From the NCBI RefSeq assembly GCF_007747215.1, contig NZ_CP036273.1, positions 2,464,322 through 2,528,321 on the forward strand: a stretch of DNA of 64,000 nt, given 5' to 3'. A program made the translations under genes and the position numbers. This document shows, piece by piece, positions 13,573 to 51,500 of this stretch. This DNA is from Urbifossiella limnaea. Its GTDB lineage: Bacteria > Planctomycetota > Planctomycetia > Gemmatales > Gemmataceae. The notes under the pieces are model-generated. The model was not told the DNA's origin. It worked only from the letters and a program-made list of their open reading frames with translations, and searched no databases. Positions within the stretch are counted from its first letter, which is position 1. Every line of letters begins with the position of its first letter.

Positions 13573-14857
13573 GCGGCACGACCCGCGAGAGGAAGGGGTC
13601 GAGGCACGTCGCCCAGCGGTGATTCGCCTCCACGTAGCGGCGGCCGGCGGCGCCGAGGGCGGTGCCGCGGGCGTGGTCCGTCAGCAGCGTCGAACAAGCG
13701 CCCACCCACTCGGCGGGCGACTCGGCGCGGAGCAGGTGCTCGCCGGGGGTCGTTCCCAGCGCCGCGAGGGCGGGCGGGGCGGCGACCACGGGGCGGGCCA
13801 GCGCCAGCGCTTCGAGCACCTTGTTTTGGATGCCGCGGGCCAACCGCAGCGGCACCACCGCGGCCGCAGCGCCGAGCACGAACGGGCGCACGTCGGGCAC
13901 GGTGCCCACTACCTTCACGCCGGGCAACTCCACTAGCCGCCGCACCTCGGGGGCGGGTGATCGCCCGACGATGCGGAACTCCGCCTCGGGGTGCTTCGCC
14001 CGCAGTTCGGGCCAGACGCTTCGCGCGAACCACACGGCCCCGTCGATGTTCGGCAGGTAGTCCATTGCCCCGACGAACGCCAGCGCCGGCTCGACCGGCA
14101 CGACCCGCGGTGCGAAGTAGTCGAGGTCGACGCCGTTGGACGCGACGGTCGCGGCGCCGGGCGCCGTGAACGAGTCGTACACGTCGGCCTCGGCACGGCT
14201 GACCACCGCCCGCGCCGCGGTCCATGTCGGTAGCGTCCGTTCGAGCTTGCGCACGCGGCGGGCTTCGAGGCGGTAGACCCAGCGCTTCGGGCCGCGGACC
14301 GTCGTCGCGAAGTCAAGCCACTTCTGGCTGTCCACGTCCATCAGGTCCACGAACCGCAGCACACCGGCGAGTGCGTCACCCGCGAGGTACGGCGCCAGGC
14401 TCGACGCCGACACGACGGCCGCGGCGAAGCCCGCTTCCTTCGCCCAGCCGCGGACCACGTCGAACAGCGCCGGCTCGCGGAAGATGCCTTCGGAGATGCT
14501 GCCGCCGCTGAGGACGCTCCAGCCGGCGCGGAGCCACTTGCGCGTCCCGGCCGCGGGCACGATTGCCACGCGCTCGCAAAGCCGGTCCAGCTCGGAGCGC
14601 GTCTCCGCGGAAACGGGCTCGTCCGCGAGACAGCCCAGCCACACGCGCCCCCGGGCGGCGAGGCCGCGCAGCATGTGGTAGTTGCGGATGCGATCGCCCT
14701 TGTCGGGCGGGAACGGGACGCGGTGCGTGAGGTAAAGAACCCGCGGAGCGCGGGACTGACCAATTTCCAATGACCCACCACTGACCAAGGAAGACAGCTG
14801 GGTTCTGTCCTTGGTCAGTGGTGGGTCATTGGTCAACTGGTCATGGGCCGCGGTCAT
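13562..14857 (-). CDS. PEP-CTERM/XrtA-type glycosyltransferase (TIGR03087-like) with a palindrome inserted at its N-terminus
   Basis: The 431-residue product carries VLYLTHRVPFPPDKGDRIRN, the hallmark opening of the TIGR03087 (Stp1-type) exosortase-linked glycosyltransferases. The donor-domain motifs FVGAMDYLPNIDGAVWF and GIQNKVLEALALARPVVAAP follow. The ATG at 14857 overlaps the stop of the sugar transferase (ATGA), which supports it as the ancestral start. Residues of about 6-34 are encoded by an 87-base palindromic element (14757-14843) and look foreign (TNDPPLTKDRTQLSSLVSGG). Removing 29 codons would leave MTAA followed almost at once by PRVLYLTHR. Function: sugar addition in exopolysaccharide synthesis. 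Confidence 0.9.
   Translation of the reverse strand: MTAAHDQLTNDPPLTKDRTQLSSLVSGGSLEIGQSRAPRVLYLTHRVPFPPDKGDRIRNYHMLRGLAARGRVWLGCLADEPVSAETRSELDRLCERVAIVPAAGTRKWLRAGWSVLSGGSISEGIFREPALFDVVRGWAKEAGFAAAVVSASSLAPYLAGDALAGVLRFVDLMDVDSQKWLDFATTVRGPKRWVYRLEARRVRKLERTLPTWTAARAVVSRAEADVYDSFTAPGAATVASNGVDLDYFAPRVVPVEPALAFVGAMDYLPNIDGAVWFARSVWPELRAKHPEAEFRIVGRSPAPEVRRLVELPGVKVVGTVPDVRPFVLGAAAAVVPLRLARGIQNKVLEALALARPVVAAPPALAALGTTPGEHLLRAESPAEWVGACSTLLTDHARGTALGAAGRRYVEANHRWATCLDPFLSRVVPHDG
14757..14843. repeat. Palindromic element inside the glycosyltransferase 5' end
   Basis: Core arms 14767-14791 and 14808-14832 are 25-base exact reverse complements (left begins CCAATGACCCACCACTGACC) with a 16-base loop. 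Weaker TGACCA-type similarity extends the arms to about 14757 and 14843. It is built of reiterated TGACCA/TGGTCA units and is less GC-rich than its surroundings. The stretch is about 87 bases (29 codons) and keeps the host gene in frame. Confidence 0.75.
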
Positions 14858-29913: not shown

Positions 29914-29965
29914 TTCGCCGCTTGCGGCGTAGCGGCGTTTGCGCCGCTACGCCGCAAGCGGCGAA
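29914..29965. terminator. 24-bp perfect-stem bidirectional terminator
   Basis: Arms 29914-29937 and 29942-29965 are exact reverse complements (left begins TTCGCCGCTTGCGGCGTAGC) around TTTG. It lies between the convergent M61 peptidase and glycoside-hydrolase-like genes, 2 and 5 bases from their stops. The arm itself contains a smaller inverted unit (CGCCGCTTGCGGCG). Confidence 0.8.
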
Positions 29966-31947: not shown

Positions 31948-33414
31948 ATGTCCCGCTCGCTCGCTCCCCTCGCGCTCGTGCTCGCGCTGACCGCCGCCGC
32001 AACCGGGCAAGACCCGGTCGAACGGGCGCTCGGCGTTCAGCAGGCGATTGCCGCCGCCGAAAAGCACCTCGCCGCCGACCGGCCCACCGAAGCCGTCGCC
32101 GTTCTCGAAACCCAACTCCCGAACGCCGACGGCCGCGCCCCGTTCCTGGACGCCCTCCGCCGGGCGTACGCCGCCGAGCTGAAGCAGCTTGAACGCACCC
32201 CGAACGCCGAGCGCGCCGCGGCCCTCGCCCGCCGGCTGGCGCTGCTCGGTGCGGAAGCCACGATGACCGTCGCGGTCATGCTCCCCGACGCGCCGGGCGC
32301 TGCCGCACCGTTGCCAGCGGCGCCGGCCGCTGCCGAACCGTTGCCCGATGCGCCGGCCGTCGCCGCAACGGCGCCGGGCACGGCCGAGGCGCGGGGGCTG
32401 TTCAACCAGGGGAAGTACGCCGAGGCCGCGGCGAAGTTCGCGGCCGCCCGCGGGGCCGCGCCGCTGACGCAGGACGAGGCCGTTGCGTGGGCGTACTGCC
32501 GCATCCGCGCTGCCGCCGACACGGTGAACCCGTCCGGCTGCGATCCCACTGCCGCGGCCGCCGCCGAAGCCGATGTGATCGAGGCGCTGAAGCTCGCGCC
32601 CGGGAACGCTGAGCTGGAGCGCGTCGGCAAGCAGGTGCAGGCCGTCGCCCGCGCCCGGGCCGGGAACAAGGCCGCGGGCGCGCCCGCGGCCGCGGTTCCC
32701 GGCGACTGGGAGGCCGTAGAATCGCCGAGCTTCCGCGTGCGGCACAAGGGGAACAAGGCGCTCGCCGACGCGGTCGCCGCCGCGGCCGAGGTCAGGCGCG
32801 CGGAGACGTTTACCCGCTGGAGCGGCCCCCCCGGCGGGGCGTGGGGCGCGAAGTGCGAGATCGTCCTGCACCCGACCGCCGCGTGCTACGCCGCCATGAC
32901 CAACCGACCCGCCGCGGGCACCGGGCACGCCACCGTCAAGCTGTCCGGCGGCCGGCCGACCGAGCGCCGCCTCGACCTCCGCGCCGACGATCCCGACCTG
33001 ATCCCGAACGCGCTGCCGCGCGAACTCACGCACGTCGTGCTGGCCGACCTGTTCCCCGGCACCCCGCCGCCGAAGTGGGCCGAGGAAGGCATGGCGGTGC
33101 TGGCCGGGTCGCCGGACGAGGTGAGCCGGTACGTCCGCACCCTGAGCCGCTGCGCCCGCGCCGGCGAGTTGGTGCCGATGGCGTCGCTGCTGGAACTGAC
33201 CGACTTCCCCGCGGCGGACAAGGTGACGGGCTACCTCTGCGCCAGCGTCACGCTCGTGGACTACCTCGTGAAGTTGAAGGGCGAGCAGCACTTCCTGATG
33301 TTCGTGCGCGACACGCAGCGGTATGGCACCGCCCAGGCGCTGCGCCGGCAGTACGACCTGGACGGCCCCGCGGGGCTGGAGCAGGCGTGGCGGCGGGCGG
33401 CGGTGCTTCCGTAG
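31948..33414 (+). CDS. Secreted peptidase-MA-like protein with degenerate zinc motif
   Basis: The 488-residue product has a signal peptide (MSRSLAPLALVLALTAAATG). An Ala/Pro-rich helical region with a TPR-like unit (GLFNQGKYAEAAAKFAAARG) follows, then a C-terminal gluzincin-like domain: FRVRHKGNKALADAV, LPRELTHVVLADLFPGTPPP, KWAEEGMAVLAGS. The expected HExxH reads RELTH, so the first zinc ligand is Arg and catalysis is doubtful. The Glu of WAEEG is kept. The start at 31948 is chosen over a longer open frame upstream because of the signal peptide. The stop codon lies inside the inverted-repeat element at 33409. Confidence 0.8.
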   Translation: MSRSLAPLALVLALTAAATGQDPVERALGVQQAIAAAEKHLAADRPTEAVAVLETQLPNADGRAPFLDALRRAYAAELKQLERTPNAERAAALARRLALLGAEATMTVAVMLPDAPGAAAPLPAAPAAAEPLPDAPAVAATAPGTAEARGLFNQGKYAEAAAKFAAARGAAPLTQDEAVAWAYCRIRAAADTVNPSGCDPTAAAAAEADVIEALKLAPGNAELERVGKQVQAVARARAGNKAAGAPAAAVPGDWEAVESPSFRVRHKGNKALADAVAAAAEVRRAETFTRWSGPPGGAWGAKCEIVLHPTAACYAAMTNRPAAGTGHATVKLSGGRPTERRLDLRADDPDLIPNALPRELTHVVLADLFPGTPPPKWAEEGMAVLAGSPDEVSRYVRTLSRCARAGELVPMASLLELTDFPAADKVTGYLCASVTLVDYLVKLKGEQHFLMFVRDTQRYGTAQALRRQYDLDGPAGLEQAWRRAAVLP

Positions 33415-33563
33415 GTCGGGTCGAGGCTTCGAGACTCGAAACGGGACGCCACCGACGCCAGAGCTCAGATCGAAACCCGAACCCACGGGGGTTCGGGTTT
33501 CTCCGTTCTCGCTGAACTCCCCCACCCCCGCGTCGGGTCTCGAAGACTCGACCCGACCTACGG
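33409..33563. repeat. 155-base element with 30-base terminal inverted repeats
   Basis: Arms 33409-33438 (begins CCGTAGGTCGGGTCGAGGCT) and 33534-33563 are reverse complements with 2 mismatches in 30. The element starts at the last sense codon of the peptidase-like gene and provides its TAG stop. Inside is a perfect 12-bp hairpin at 33473-33500. There is no transposase, so it would be a non-autonomous (MITE-like) or REP-type repeat. Confidence 0.75.
33473..33500 (+). terminator. 12-bp stem-loop inside the 155-base element
   Basis: AAACCCGAACCC (33473-33484) pairs exactly with 33489-33500, which ends in TTT and is followed by CTCCGTTCTC. It can terminate the peptidase-like gene before argG. Confidence 0.75.
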
Positions 33564-33617
33564 AAGGCAGCCGCCCCGGTTCATACGCTACCCCCCACAC
33601 ACCGAGGACCCACTACG

Positions 33618-39082: not shown

Positions 39083-39555
39083 TGCACCCACTACCGCTTC
39101 TCCGCCGGCGCGAGATCGAGGCGGGCGTGATCGCCCCGCTGGTCGCGGTGTTCGCCGCCGAGGTCGGGGCCGACCGCGCCCGCGAAATCGCCGCCGGCGT
39201 CATCAAAGAGCTGGCCCGTCAGGGCGGCTGTGCCGCGGCCGCGGTCCTTGGCGGCAACGGCCTCCGCGAACTGAAACGCGCCGTCGAGCGGTGGACCGAC
39301 GACGACGCGCTCGAACTCGTCGTGCGGCGCGACGACGCGGAGGCGTTCGAGTTCGACGTGGTGCGCTGCCGGTACGCCGAGATGTACCGCCGGCTCGGGC
39401 TCGCCGACCTGGGGCCGGTGCTGTCGTGCAACCGCGACGCGGCGATGATCGAGGGCTTCAACCCCGCCATCGCCTTCACCCGCACGCAGACGCTGATGGA
39501 AGGCGCGACGCACTGCGACTTCCGTTATCGATCGGGAAGTCAGACGCAGGATTAA
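39079..39555 (+). CDS. L-2-amino-thiazoline-4-carboxylic-acid hydrolase-like protein
   Basis: The 158-residue product resembles the ATC hydrolase family, which opens the thiazoline ring in cysteine formation. Landmarks are FEFDVVRCRYAEMYRRLGL, VLSCNRDAAMIEGFNPAI and TLMEGATHCDFRYR, with the conserved Cys and His/Asp at the usual C-terminal sites. Its start overlaps the HNH gene by 4 bases. The last two codons (Gln-Asp) and the TAA stop lie inside the inverted-repeat element at 39546, so the original C-terminus may have been longer or shorter. Confidence 0.85.
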   Translation: MMHPLPLLRRREIEAGVIAPLVAVFAAEVGADRAREIAAGVIKELARQGGCAAAAVLGGNGLRELKRAVERWTDDDALELVVRRDDAEAFEFDVVRCRYAEMYRRLGLADLGPVLSCNRDAAMIEGFNPAIAFTRTQTLMEGATHCDFRYRSGSQTQD

Positions 39556-39686
39556 CCACAGAGTCACAGAGAGCACAGAGGAAAGACAAAAAGCAGAGTG
39601 GTGACAAAGTCTGGTTTCAGACTCTGCTCCGTCTCGGTCTTCTCGTCTTCCCTCTGTGCTCTCTGTGACTCTGTGGTTAATCCTGC
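39546..39686. repeat. 141-base element with 36-base perfect terminal inverted repeats
   Basis: Arms 39546-39581 (begins GCAGGATTAACCACAGAGTC) and 39651-39686 are exact reverse complements. The internal part holds AGTCTG/CAGACT (39609-39614, 39619-39624) and GCAGAGT/ACTCTGC pairs, so the whole folds as one long hairpin. The AACCACAGAG core matches a repeat type I know from many bacterial genomes. There is no transposase. It supplies the stop codon of the upstream gene and can end both convergent transcripts. It is AT-richer than the flanks. Confidence 0.85.
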
Positions 39687-45831: not shown

Positions 45832-46460
45832 CGCACCACGGTCGGCGGCGGGCGGAACAGCCACTTCAGCAGCAGGTGCGTCGGCAAGTAAACGAGCAGC
45901 GGCAGGCCCGCCATGAGCAGCGCCAGCCAGGCCAGGGGCGGCATCAACGTCTGGGCCTGGTTGTCGTCCATGCCGTACACGTAGTTCACGTTCACCGGCA
46001 CGTCCGGGTTGGCCGGGTCGGGCGGCGGGGCCGGCAGCAGGAAGTAGCACACCGGCATCAGCACCCACGCCAGCGTCGCCCACGCCCAGAACGCCCGGCG
46101 GTCGTAGCCGAGGCGGTAGATGAACCAGAGGAGCACCAGCGGCAGCCAGAAGTGGAAGAAGGAGAGGCCGCGGGTGAACAGCGAGAGGCTGTCGCGGAAC
46201 ATGTACGCCGTCATGCCCGTGAGCGGGAAGCCGGCGAGGGTGGCGAGGAAGTCCGCGATCCACACGGACTGCGGGACGAGAATGCCGACGGCCGGTGCGG
46301 ACGCGAGTAGGGAGCGGTTCGTCCACGCGGCGGCGAGGCCCATCAGGAGGGCGATGTCGCAGTAGTACAGGAAGTTCGTCGGGCCGTAGGCGTGCCAGTA
46401 GTACGGCACCAGCACGGCGACGAACGCAGTGTACGCCAGCTTCGCCGGGAGCGGGATCAT
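45828..46460 (-). CDS. Multi-pass membrane protein of unknown function
   Basis: The 210-residue product has about six to seven membrane helices: AYTAFVAVLVPYYWHAYGPT, NFLYYCDIALLMGLAAAW, FPLTGMTAYMFRDSLSLFTR, FHFWLPLVLLWFIYRLGYD and a C-terminal LAWLALLMAGLPLLVYLPTH. The HxYGPTNFLYxCD and HFWLPLxL motifs suggest a conserved family I recall from planctomycetes and other phyla, without assigned function. It overlaps the DoxX-like gene (ATGA), so both, and probably the STAS-like gene, form one operon. Confidence 0.8.
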   Translation of the reverse strand: MIPLPAKLAYTAFVAVLVPYYWHAYGPTNFLYYCDIALLMGLAAAWTNRSLLASAPAVGILVPQSVWIADFLATLAGFPLTGMTAYMFRDSLSLFTRGLSFFHFWLPLVLLWFIYRLGYDRRAFWAWATLAWVLMPVCYFLLPAPPPDPANPDVPVNVNYVYGMDDNQAQTLMPPLAWLALLMAGLPLLVYLPTHLLLKWLFRPPPTVVR

Positions 46461-46509
46461 CGAGGGGGCTCCGCGACCGTGTCGCCGTCCAGTCTACGCA
46501 CTCACCGCG

Positions 46510-48399
46510 TCACGGCTCGTTGGTCACGACCAGCACGTCGCAGTTGCGGTAGAAGTCGAACCGGCGGGCAACGACCCGATGCGGCGCGGTCGTCAGCGGC
46601 CGCACCCACTGTGTCCAGGTCGGCTCGGGGATGAGCAGGTAGCCGGGCGTCGGCACGGCGAGAAAGTCGGCGGCGGCGTGCGGGCCGGGCAGCTTCGACA
46701 CCTCACGCTTGGCGTAAAAGACCACGCTCGGCTGGAACCAGTCGTACCCGCCGACGCGGAGGTCGCGGGTCGGGTCGTCGAGGCGGGCGTCGGCGACGAG
46801 GCCGCGCGGCGCCTTGTACGGATCCATGCCGGCGGGGACCACCGCCGCCACACCCGCCACGAATGCGACGGACGAAGCCGCCATCGCAACCAGGAACCCG
46901 TGCCGGTCGCCGAGCCGCAGGCGCCACGCCATCGCGGCGGCGCCGACCAGCGGAATCAGTCCGAGGACCGCCCACCGCTCCAGTCCGGGGAACGTCCGCA
47001 GCTTCGGGACTGGGATCGTCCCGGCGACGACGAGCAGCCCCGCGGCGAACAGGACGCCGACAAGCGCGACGCCGACGACGGCGGCGAAGACGAGCCAGCG
47101 CGGCACGGCGAGGCCGTCGCGCCAGCGGACGAGGAAGCGGGCGGTGAGGATCGCCAGGGCCGGGTACAGCGGCAGGACGTAGTTCGGCAGCTTCGTCGAG
47201 ACGAGCGAGAAGACGGTGAGGTACGAGAGGAACCAGCAGAGCAGGTAACGATTAGCGCGGTCGCCCGGCGGTTGGCTGCCGTCGTGCGTGGTTACCCCCC
47301 TCACCCCGCGTGCTTCGCCGCGACCCTCTCCCCCGAGGGGAGAGGGTGGCGAGACACCATCCGTTTCGGGTCGTGGTGTGCGGTGCAATGCCCGCCCGTG
47401 ATGAGGGTCGGGAGCGCCCACCCTCTCCCCTCGGGGGAGAGGGTCGCGGCGAAGCACGCGGGGTGAGGGGGTTAACCACGCGCGACGAAGTCCTGGAACT
47501 GCGTTCCACACGCGAACCACGAACGCCGGCACCCGCGCTTCGGCCGCCGCGTACCACAGCGTCGCACACAGGACGACGCTCCACGGCGCGAACAACACCA
47601 GCAGCGCCGCCGCGTGGTAGAAGATCGGCCCGCTGTGGTTCTCCATCGGCGTCAGCGCCCGGTTCACGTTCTCGTTCAGGAAGAACGCCTTCGGCCACGC
47701 CCCGCGCGTCTCCGCCGCCACCAGCCCGTACCACGGCCCCGCCACCAGCAGGAACGTCAGCAGCGCCCACCCGAGCCGCCGGTCCAGCAACCGCCGTAAC
47801 TCGCCGTTCCACGCGAAGTACAGGAGGAACACCAGCCCCGGCACCGCCACGCCGACCGGGCCTTTCGACAAGGCCGCCAGCCCGCACGCGGCGGCCGTCG
47901 GCACCCACCAGCCGCGGCCGCCGGCCTCGTGGCCGACCCAGAACATCAGGTACGTCAGCACCGTGAACAGCAGCAGCGTGGCGTCCGGCGTGGCGGCGTG
48001 GGCCAGCACGCAAAACTCGATCGCCGACGCGAGCACGATTCCGGCCAGCAGGCCGGTGCCGCGGCCGAACATGCGCCGGGCCAGTTCGTAGGTGAGGAGG
48101 ATCGTGAGCCAGCCGCACAGCACCGACGGCAGCCGCGCCGAGAACTCGCTGACACCGCACGCCGCGTAGCTGAGGCGCAGCAGCCAGTACTGCATCACCG
48201 GCTTCTGCGTCCGCAGCTCGAAGTTGAACGTCGGCACGACCCACGAGTCGGCCTCACGCATCTCGCGGCCGGCCTCGGCGTTCACGCCCTCGTCCACGTC
48301 CCACAGGCTCGACACGCCGAGGTTCGGCAGCGTCAGCACCGCGGCGGCGCACAGCAGTACGGCGTAGTCGGCGGCCCGGGTTCGGAACCAGCCCGGCAT
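46510..48399 (-). CDS. ArnT-like glycosyltransferase (GT83/GT39-type) with an in-frame palindromic insertion
   Basis: The 629-residue product is a polytopic lipid-linked-sugar transferase. The family active-site loop is present near the N-terminus (LWDVDEGVNAEAGREMREAD), then many helices, and the end is soluble (LLIPEPTWTQWVRPLTTAPH). It would add a sugar, such as aminoarabinose in ArnT, to lipid A or another envelope lipid. About residues 304-372 (LTPSPRVLRRDPLPRGERVG up to GVSPPSPLGGEGRGEARGVR) are encoded by a palindromic repeat and have no place in the family; flanking membrane blocks join naturally when it is removed. Whether the protein still works is uncertain. Confidence 0.88.
   Translation of the reverse strand: MPGWFRTRAADYAVLLCAAAVLTLPNLGVSSLWDVDEGVNAEAGREMREADSWVVPTFNFELRTQKPVMQYWLLRLSYAACGVSEFSARLPSVLCGWLTILLTYELARRMFGRGTGLLAGIVLASAIEFCVLAHAATPDATLLLFTVLTYLMFWVGHEAGGRGWWVPTAAACGLAALSKGPVGVAVPGLVFLLYFAWNGELRRLLDRRLGWALLTFLLVAGPWYGLVAAETRGAWPKAFFLNENVNRALTPMENHSGPIFYHAAALLVLFAPWSVVLCATLWYAAAEARVPAFVVRVWNAVPGLRRAWLTPSPRVLRRDPLPRGERVGAPDPHHGRALHRTPRPETDGVSPPSPLGGEGRGEARGVRGVTTHDGSQPPGDRANRYLLCWFLSYLTVFSLVSTKLPNYVLPLYPALAILTARFLVRWRDGLAVPRWLVFAAVVGVALVGVLFAAGLLVVAGTIPVPKLRTFPGLERWAVLGLIPLVGAAAMAWRLRLGDRHGFLVAMAASSVAFVAGVAAVVPAGMDPYKAPRGLVADARLDDPTRDLRVGGYDWFQPSVVFYAKREVSKLPGPHAAADFLAVPTPGYLLIPEPTWTQWVRPLTTAPHRVVARRFDFYRNCDVLVVTNEP
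47283..47487. repeat. About 205-base palindromic repeat inside the ArnT-like gene
   Basis: Arms of about 66 bases (about 47283-47348 and 47421-47487) are reverse complements with about three mismatches. Each arm carries CCCTCACCCCGCGTGC and its own small hairpin CCCTCTCCCC/GGGGAGAGGG. The CCCTCTCCCC-type repeat is common between genes in several phyla (general knowledge). Here it lies inside a coding region and the reading frame stays open through it. Exact ends are uncertain by a few bases. Confidence 0.85.
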
Positions 48400-48531
48400 G
48401 TCGGCCTCCGGAGCGGTCGGCGGATCGGCCGCGCAGGTTACCCCAACCCCGCCGCCGGGCGGAAGCCGAGTTCGGCTTGCGTCGGGCGGGCGGAATCGGG
48501 TCCAATCCGACCTCCCCGCACGGAAGCGGCC

Positions 48532-51500
48532 ATGATGGCGCCTCTGCCGAGCCCCACCCCGCCGCCCGACCGGCCCGAACTGCCGCGGGCCCGGGTCGAG
48601 GTGCGCGCCGGCGGCGGCAGGCCCGTCAGCTACGAGATCGCCACCGACGAGTTCCTGGTCGGCCCCGCCGCCGGCTGCGACCTGCGGCTCCCGCTCCCCG
48701 GCACCGCCCCCGTCGCGGTGCAGTTCCTCCGCCGGGCCGACGGCCTGAAGGTCCGCCGCCTCGCCCCGTCGCTCGTCGTGCAGCTGAACAACGTTTCGCT
48801 TCCCGCGAACACACCGACGCCGGTCGGCCACCGCGACCGCGTCACCATCGGCGACGTGGAACTGACGCTGAGCGTGGACGCCCCCGCGTACCTGTCGCCG
48901 AAGCTCGTGCTGCTCCCCGCCGAGGAGCCCTCCGCGCCGCCGCAGTGGCCGCCCGGCGCGGACGCGCTCGCGCAGCGAGCAGAGGAAATGGAACGCCGCG
49001 AGGCCGAGGTCGTCCGCCGGCAGCGTGAGCTGGACCGGCAGACGGAGGAACTCGAAGCCGACCGGGCGCTGTGGTACGCCCGCCGGCAGGAGATGGAGGA
49101 AGAGGCGTCGATCTTCCGCAAGGCCACGGCCGCGCTGCCGGCGCGGGAGCACGAGGCGGAGCGCGTCCGCAGCGAGCTGACCGCGCTGCGGCAGCAGTTC
49201 GCCACCGAGTGCGAGGACCGCCGCGACCGGCTCGCCGCCGAGCGGCAGGAGTTCGAGCGCGAGAAATCGGCCTTCGCCGCCGAGTTGGACCGCCGCCGGG
49301 CCGGGGTCGAAGCCGAGGTGCTGGACCGCTACCGGGCGAAGATGGAGGAACTGGACCGGTCGCAGGCGACCGTCCGCGACGCGGCCGCGCACCTCGCCGA
49401 ACGCCGCGATCAGACCGAGGCCGAGTGCGCCGACCGGCTGCGGGCCGTCGAGGAGGAGGTGGCCCGTCGACGGGCGGCGCTCGACGCCGAACTGGAGCGG
49501 CACGCCCCGGTGCTGGCCGAGCGGGCCGAGCTGGAGCGGCAGCGGGCCGCGTTCGCCGCGGATCAGGAGCTTCTGGTCCGCGCCCGCGCGACGTTCGAGG
49601 CCGAGCGCGCCGCGGAGCTCGACCGCCTCGCCACCCGCGAGAGCCGGCTGGCGGACCGCGAGGCCGATCTGACACGCCGTGAGACGACGCTTCAGGCGGA
49701 CCGCGCGGCGTTCGACCAGGACCGCACGCTTCTGAACGACGACTTGCTGCGCCTCGACCGCCGCCGGGCCGAACTCGACGACCGCGAACAGGCGCTGGCG
49801 TCCCGCGGGCGCGACGCCGAGGTGCGGCTCGACCAGCTGAAGCGCGACGCGGCCGAGTGGGAGGAGACCGTCCGCCTCGCCGCGGCGGAGCAGGACCGGC
49901 AGCGCGAGGAGGCCGACCGGCTCGACCGCGCCCGCGCCGAACTGGACTCGCAAACGGCCCGCCTGAGCGAGCGGGCGGCGCAGCTCGAGGCGCAGCAGGG
50001 GGTGTTGGCGGTCGTCCGCGCCCGGCTCGACCGAACGCGCGAGGACGTGGAACGCGAGGCCGGGTTGCTCGCCGCGGCGAGGGTGCGCGAGGACTCGGCG
50101 CACGGCGAGCTACGCGACCGCATCCGCGAGGCCGAACAACTTCGTGCCGAACTGTCCACGGTGCAGGAGAGCGCGGCCCTGGAGCGCGAGCGACTCGACG
50201 AACGCGACGCGCTCCTGAGTGCGGGGCTGGACGAGCTCCGCAGGCTGAAGGAGGCCGTGGCCGCAGACGAGGCGCGGGTACGGGAGCGCGAGGCGGCGCA
50301 GGACGCGCGCTCGGCCGAGTTCGCGGAGCAGGCCGGGGCTCTAAAGGGGCGGATGGCCCAGGCACTTGACCTACAGGCGCGGCTCGAAGCGGACCGCGTG
50401 GCGCTGCGGGAACGCGAGGCGGCACTGGCCCGTGCCGAAGACGCGCGGGCCGCGCTGCAGGAGCAGCTGCGGAAGCGCGCGGAAGACCTGGCGGCCCGCT
50501 CGCAGGCCCTGGACGAAGCCGTCCGCCGGCTCGCCGCCGACCAGGGGGCCATCGACCAGGCGCGGGCCGCGGTCGCCGCGGAGCAAGTCGCCGCAGGCGA
50601 AACCATAACGCTCAACCGCGCCGACCTGGACGCCCGCGCCGCGGAGCTGGAGCGGCAGGGTGCCCAACTCGCCGGGCGCGAGGCGGCGCTGGGCCGGCAG
50701 GTGGAGAAGCTGAAGGACGTGGGCCGGGCCGTCGCCGCGGAGCGGAAGGCGCTCGCCGACGCCCGCGCCACCTGGGACGCCGACCGCCGCGCCGCGGTCG
50801 CTTCGGCGGACGCCGTCCGCGCCGAGTACGCGGCGTTGAAGGCCGACGCGCCGGCGCTCGAGGAGCAGGCCGCCGCCGCCGCCGCGAAGATGACGACGGC
50901 CCGCGACGCGCTCCGCGGCCACCTCGCCGAGCTGAACGACTTCGCCCGCCAGAGCCGCGACGACCTGGAGGCCGTGCGGGTGCAGGTGCGGGCCGACGCC
51001 GAACGGCTCCGCGACCAGGAAGCGACGCTCGACCGCGCCCGTGCCGAGCACCGCCTCGCGGTCACCGGGTTCCGGCAACAGCTGGTCGATTGGCAGGCCC
51101 GCGTCGCGGAGATGCGGCGCCTCTTGCAGCAGGGGGAGACGCGGCTGGACGCCCGGCAGGCGGCGGTCGATCAGGCGGCCCGCGACGCCGAGGCCGCGAC
51201 CGTGCAGCTGGCGGAGGAGGCCGAGCGGCTGCGGCGCGAGCGCGACGAAGTCGTGCAGCGCCGCACCGAGGTCGAGCGGCACCTCGCCGACATGCGCGAG
51301 TGGTACCGCCGCAAGTTGCGCGAGGTGACCGGCGCGGAACCGGCCCGCGGCGACGAGCCGCCGGCTCTCAAACTTCACACCGCCCCCGACGACCTCGAAC
51401 CCGGCGACCGGCAACTCGGCGAGCTGTTGAAGTCGCACGGGCTCGTGGACGCCGACACGCTCGCCGCCCTGTGGGCCGAAGCTTCCCGCCAGCGGCGAAC

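Follow-up and report, generated by a model that had tools for sequence, protein, structure and literature searches.

Introduction

Rickettsia palindromic elements (RPEs) are found in frame in many genes (Ogata et al. 2000, 2002; reviewed in PMC10969869). The title of Ogata et al. 2002 presents protein-coding palindromes as a "unique but recurrent" feature of Rickettsia, and scattered reports of intragenic REPs appeared later. The GTAG/CGTC REPs occur genome-wide, both between genes and, in part, inside open reading frames (ORFs), including in the PVC relative Opitutus terrae (PMC3733652). These REPs consist of 20- to 40-bp units with stems of 5 to 13 bp, and they mostly add 20 to 30 residues to the interrupted proteins (PMC3733652). 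In two Xanthomonas species, different REPs occupy approximately the same position of recB (PMC3733652), which is a precedent for site reuse. MITEs and other small mobile sequences, such as ERIC and QMITE1, are short, dispersed, non-autonomous inverted-repeat elements that sometimes generate in-frame fusions (PMC10969869, PMC2229807). Finally, long inverted repeats are located within coding genes of nematomorph mitochondria (PMC6649704).

Here, we analyze a palindromic repeat carried in frame by a gene for an ArnT-like glycosyltransferase in a 64-kb window, i.e., the whole stretch of DNA under study. This repeat and those of related genomes resemble RPEs in being palindromes of ~100 to 200 nt that lie in frame within unrelated genes, to which they add residues without introducing a stop codon, and in comprising several families bordered by conserved flanks. 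The 208-nt palindrome of the window, with 10 full copies, satisfies the RPE criterion of a palindromic dispersed repeat of ~100 to 200 nt, as well as that of an in-frame gene insertion absent from orthologues. The criterion of many intragenic copies is not met by the family of the window (1 of 15 copies, plus one relative in a congener) but is met by other families in three related genomes (G005, G059, and G063). The differences from RPEs include the phylum, the high G+C content, the mostly intergenic location of the window family, and the reuse of orthologous sites by different families. Since the window family is mainly intergenic and descent lacks the support of a sequence comparison, we did not classify the element as an RPE and do not claim that it descends from one.

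The other known systems fit less closely. The REP unit-size criterion is not met, as the arms are 70 nt long and the inserts comprise ~35 to 85 residues. Neither is the criterion of an associated RAYT transposase, because the only strong Y1 transposase of the genome adjoins a different repeat. The element has the terminal inverted repeats expected of a MITE, but no consistent target-site duplication was detected at its approximate ends, and no parent transposase was identified within the one family searched. In the nematomorph palindromes, both arms encode conserved residues (PMC6649704), whereas the window block is extra, lineage specific, and predicted to be disordered. No report of in-frame palindromes in Gemmata or other planctomycetes was found in the open-access literature searched. 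Within that literature, RPEs and intragenic REPs are already known, whereas the occurrence of such inserts in the Gemmata clade, the families involved, and the extensive reuse of the same sites appear to be new. Inserts in single-copy conserved genes of free-living planctomycetes would provide a test bed that is larger and, with Gemmata, cultivable, for asking how selfish DNA adds peptides to proteins, which loops tolerate them, and whether the sites are targeted or merely permissive.

Results and Discussion

The palindrome (positions 47280 to 47487, 208 nt, minus strand) lies wholly inside a minus-strand gene (46510 to 48399) encoding an ArnT-like GT-C glycosyltransferase of the PMT family. 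The ATG-to-stop frame of this gene, which encodes 629 residues, stays open across the palindrome, which encodes approximately 70 Arg/Gly/Pro-rich residues (~305 to 374). Inverted-repeat searches delineated a left arm (47280 to 47349) and a right arm (47418 to 47487), each of 70 nt and 97% complementary to the other. They are separated by a 68-nt spacer (47350 to 47417), which varies in the alignment of the ten full copies and is partly self-complementary in the predicted fold. A 15-bp CCCTCTCCCC hairpin is present within each arm, the CCCTCTCCCC/GGGGAGAGGG hairpin of the left arm being located at 47319 to 47351 and its counterpart in the right arm at 47420 to 47448. By a wide margin, the palindrome is the longest inverted repeat of the window, and its RNA fold has an energy of -186.6 kcal/mol, in comparison to -95.3 ± 4.7 for shuffled sequences (z = -19.6). 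An Rfam search of positions 46000 to 49000 returned no match. Relative to orthologues, the extra DNA extends approximately from 47262 to 47540 if the less conserved ends of the element are included. These outer limits are based on an outer motif, GGTT.CC.TCG..CGTGGTT, that is conserved in other copies and on a loop ~77 to 80 residues longer than that of typical orthologues. The exact ends of the insertion could not be determined in the absence of a same-species empty site, the nearest orthologues being only ~70 to 80% identical.

The host protein matched PMT_2 (E value, 9e-28), and a profile built from 27 orthologues matched the solved structure of ArnT from Cupriavidus metallidurans, 5EZM (7e-66). 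ArnT (5EZM/5F15) was the best solved match by both sequence and fold, the AlphaFold2 model displaying the ArnT fold with 5F15/5EZM as the top match (TM-score of 0.80 by target length). The protein did not pass the equivalog test for ArnT, a lipid A L-Ara4N transferase, with 146 bits versus a cut-off of 567; we therefore refer to it as ArnT-like only and name no substrate. The mean pLDDT of the model was 86.6, with most of the core above 90, whereas residues 312 to 375, located between helices 273 to 300 and 378 to 399, were unstructured with pLDDT values almost all below 50. Thus, the model predicts that the extra ~70 residues form a disordered loop joining two membrane helices. From a helix count starting at the catalytic DVDEG loop, we infer that the insert-bearing loop is cytoplasmic, between approximately TM8 and TM9, and away from the active site; an Arg-rich helix end agrees with this placement. 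Conserved residues are retained on both sides of the insert, where the model is confident.

An earlier note, made from the sequence alone, had proposed that positions 47283 to 47487 contain a palindrome in frame within an ArnT-like glycosyltransferase, with two ~66-base arms, each bearing a hairpin, and ~65 Arg/Gly/Pro-rich residues added between membrane segments. These proposals were borne out by the inverted repeat and the open 629-residue frame: the coordinates were correct to within 3 nt, the measured arms are slightly longer (70 nt), and the added residues number roughly 70. The ArnT-like assignment also stood, as supported by PMT_2 and 5EZM/5F15, although the substrate is not shown and the score is below the equivalog cut-off.

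A homologue of the protein was found in 57 of 59 related genomes, and the alignment breaks at the loop in nearly all of them. Palindrome-free orthologues mostly have loops of 20 to 54 residues, versus 106 in the window protein, and positions ~102 residues apart in the latter are separated by 18 residues in ArnT 5EZM. The palindrome block is therefore an addition, and this particular block was absent from every homologue found. No fewer than six further genomes of the Gemmata clade have other palindromes in this loop; four of these palindromes (those of G005, L122, L123, and L144) are clearly in frame, and L124 contains an open gap of 183 nt. In G005, which belongs to the same genus, 81 loop residues originate from a different palindrome. 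The loop block is part of a many-copy repeat in G005 and in the genomes of L122, L126, and L144, one family being common to the L122 and L144 genomes; for the blocks of L123 and L124, the searches returned just a few relatives. In a maximum-likelihood gene tree, supported branches impose at least two changes between presence and absence of a palindrome. The comparison genomes with inserts are nearly all draft MAGs.

Two additional observations concern these orthologues. The ArnT-like genes of L126 and L130, whose sources are a draft isolate genome of Gemmata and a MAG, contain C-rich loop blocks whose halves are in different frames, which could reflect either real decay or homopolymer errors. 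The protein of L140, in a record labelled Bacteroidales bacterium, groups inside the Gemmataceae beside L134 and L139 (Limnoglobus), and this record is probably a mislabelled or contaminated MAG.

The window genome, a single 7.8-Mb contig, contains 10 full-length copies of the repeat (~205 to 237 nt) and ~11 partial copies, as counted by sequence searches. Alignment of the ten full copies showed that the arms are nearly invariant across ~62 nt and that the spacer and the outermost ends are variable. Fifteen copies were inspected with their flanks and assigned to genes or intergenic regions based on ORFs, the G+C content of codon positions, and a codon model, the latter call depending on one threshold and one training genome. 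Fourteen were outside genes, the sole intragenic copy being that of the window. The intergenic copies adjoin gene ends, several of them between convergent genes. Stop-free frames accounted for 20 of the 60 frames of the ten full copies. With about one-third of the frames open, and the additional condition of phase, ~1 in 9 insertions landing at random in genes would therefore be both in phase and open. The intragenic rates of the window family (1/15) and of the G005 repeats (13/40) did not differ significantly (p = 0.08), and neither was there significant copy-specific matching of the outer arms (p = 0.08), which would have suggested arm-to-arm correction. The nearest full-length relative of the window element, L060, is in frame in congener G001, where it occupies the linker of what appears, on reading of the sequence, to be an E2 acyltransferase gene.

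To evaluate generality, repeat copies were retrieved with their flanks, leaving out the ArnT-like gene, and the continuity of the coding frame was scored. Of 48 flank pairs coding on the same strand, 32 shared a frame versus one-third expected (p = 2e-6), and 27 of these 32 were stop-free. Three genomes (G005, G059, and G063) have many copies in frame within unrelated conserved genes, such as those for NuoL, FolC, and QueG. Based on Pfam or on our own reading, the insert-bearing proteins comprise NuoL, FolC, QueG, ThiL, a NagB-like deaminase, CobW, GalT, MobA, an aldehyde dehydrogenase, and protein kinases. Unrelated proteins share recurrent inserts such as EEPLPPTPSPKKGGG...SPPPFLGEGVGGRGS, and single Pfam domains (AIRS, Aldedh, QueG_DUF1730, and Mur_ligase_M) are interrupted. 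FolC carries an insert in both G005 and G063, in each case in the sole copy found. In the window genome, the orthologues of the NagB-like protein, QueG, the aldehyde dehydrogenase, and ThiL lack inserts and are continuous through the joints; in G002, the joints at which the aldehyde dehydrogenase and QueG carry inserts hold different palindromes. As a separate observation, three protein kinase genes of G005 (L090, L107, and L110) have a palindromic insert at one common spot of the kinase N-lobe, for which paralogous copying and repeated insertion are both conceivable.

Frame keeping was also evaluated at orthologous sites. Eleven copies from G059 (the L122 genome), not selected for frame, were sought in G063 (the L144 genome), and nine orthologous sites were found. 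The length differences between the two genomes were 84, 9, 30, 12, 6, 15, 45, 75, and 132 nt, all nine being multiples of three (probability by chance, 5e-5). One of these sites (L221), in a gene that we read as TrmL-like, is empty in the related genome; the TrmL-like gene of G004 contains yet another CCCTCTCCC-type palindrome. Several of the nine sites harbor different sequences in the two genomes, and at one of them G063 holds a CCCTCTCCC type resembling that of the window.

The remaining proposals of the earlier note can be appraised against these comparisons. That the flanks join well without the repeat held, since both flanks align with orthologues and the alignment is interrupted at the block, as did the description of the repeat as an intergenic type. 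The searches for the repeat in this genome and its relatives and the alignment of ArnT homologues, both proposed as checks, recovered the copies and the congener relative reported above and showed the block to be unique to the window protein among the homologues found. The occurrence of the same block in homologues from many species, which would have refuted the proposal, was therefore not observed. The resemblance to RPEs was correct in kind but understated. The idea that in-frame carriage is unusual held only in part, such carriage being less of a one-off than supposed: it is frequent in related genomes, and other palindromes occupy the same loop.

Together, and without transcript or protein data, we consider it likely (probability of ~0.8) that genome-wide non-autonomous palindromic repeats insert at many locations and are retained inside genes only if they are in frame in a permissive loop. 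The existence of the repeat family, the absence of the block from orthologues, the open frame, frame keeping elsewhere, and site reuse are shown. Mechanistically, a REP- or MITE-like repeat, putatively moved by a transposase that has not been identified, would have landed in an inter-helix loop of the ArnT-like glycosyltransferase. The gene would be read straight through, because the length of the repeat preserves the phase and the frame used has no stop codon. The repeat would thereby add ~70 disordered Arg/Gly/Pro-rich residues to an already variable loop located off the catalytic face; that the insert is translated, that the enzyme remains active, and that the insert is neutral are all inferences. 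More generally, repeats would land anywhere, gene-breaking copies would be purged, and in-frame copies in tolerant loops would survive; several repeat families of the Gemmata clade would act in this manner, using the same loops repeatedly. By analogy, tolerance of 'selfish' palindromes within protein-coding genes is a trait that this lineage likely has in common with Rickettsia.

The least improbable alternative, although itself less likely than not, concerns how reuse of the site arose and is compatible with this main reading. One ancient palindrome may have occupied the loop and been overwritten later by lineage-specific repeats via recombination. The presence of different families at the same sites in several genes and the similar C-rich ends common to several families are in favor of overwriting. 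Against it, short-loop close relatives are interspersed in the tree, supported branches forcing the changes mentioned above, and L221 is an empty site. Independent insertion and palindrome replacement cannot be distinguished so far, and both may occur.

It is unlikely that the palindrome is kept for a function, either as an mRNA hairpin tuning expression or stability or as a peptide linker. In favor of a function, the RNA structure is very stable, and intergenic copies are near gene ends, several between convergent genes. However, the element is missing in most orthologues, its sequence and length differ where it is present, and the peptides seem to be dictated by the repeat. A function of the mRNA hairpin, albeit doubtful, is not excluded.

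A recent pseudogene, in which the repeat disrupted the gene and left the frame open by luck, is very unlikely. With 20 of 60 repeat frames open, ~1 in 9 random hits would indeed appear intact. This explanation is opposed by the conserved residues and the confident model on both flanks, by the orthologues of other species that keep the frame with other palindromes, and by folC, for which the genome yielded a single copy, itself carrying an insert. Also very unlikely is excision of the palindrome from the mRNA like an intron, or its bypass by ribosomes, in which case the residues would not be synthesized. In yeast mitochondria, ribosomes hop over mobile bypassing elements. A hairpin of -186.6 kcal/mol would hinder the ribosome, and the flanks join well without the block. 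Since neither excision nor bypass requires open, phase-keeping inserts, both are disfavored by the avoidance of stops, the nine of nine length differences in multiples of three, and the 32 of 48 shared frames. An assembly or sequencing artefact is all but excluded, since, although long palindromes are difficult to sequence and two orthologues have homopolymer-type frame shifts, the genome is a single 7.8-Mb contig with many other copies of the element, and comparable blocks are present in several independently assembled genomes.

A bolder version of the insertion-and-persistence reading is conceivable, though less likely than not, in which several families of protein-coding palindromes are colonizing Gemmata-clade genomes one gene at a time, the same loops being preferred or re-targeted by an active process that exchanges palindromes in frame. 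If true, this would be a natural experiment, still running, in which disordered linkers are inserted into conserved enzymes.

Concerning the mobility of the repeat, no consistent direct repeat indicative of a target-site duplication was detected at the ends of the element, which are not exactly known. No transposase was linked to the window repeat, Y1 being the one family searched. A RAYT was rejected as the mover, the one strong Y1 transposase of the genome adjoining a different repeat. The gene for this RAYT-like enzyme (L067:1405-2100) has its own palindromes, of the CAGCCCAGGGC/GCCCTGGG type, next to it.

The window contains other inverted repeats. The second-longest palindrome (39546 to 39686) has 42-nt arms of the TTAACCACAGAGTCACAGAGAGCACAGAGG type and a 57-nt spacer and is located between ORF ends, seemingly in an intergenic region. 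An inverted repeat at 33406 to 33566, with 34-nt arms and a 93-nt spacer, lies at an ORF end, and perfect hairpins are present at 14767 to 14832 (25-nt arms) and 29914 to 29965 (24-nt arms).
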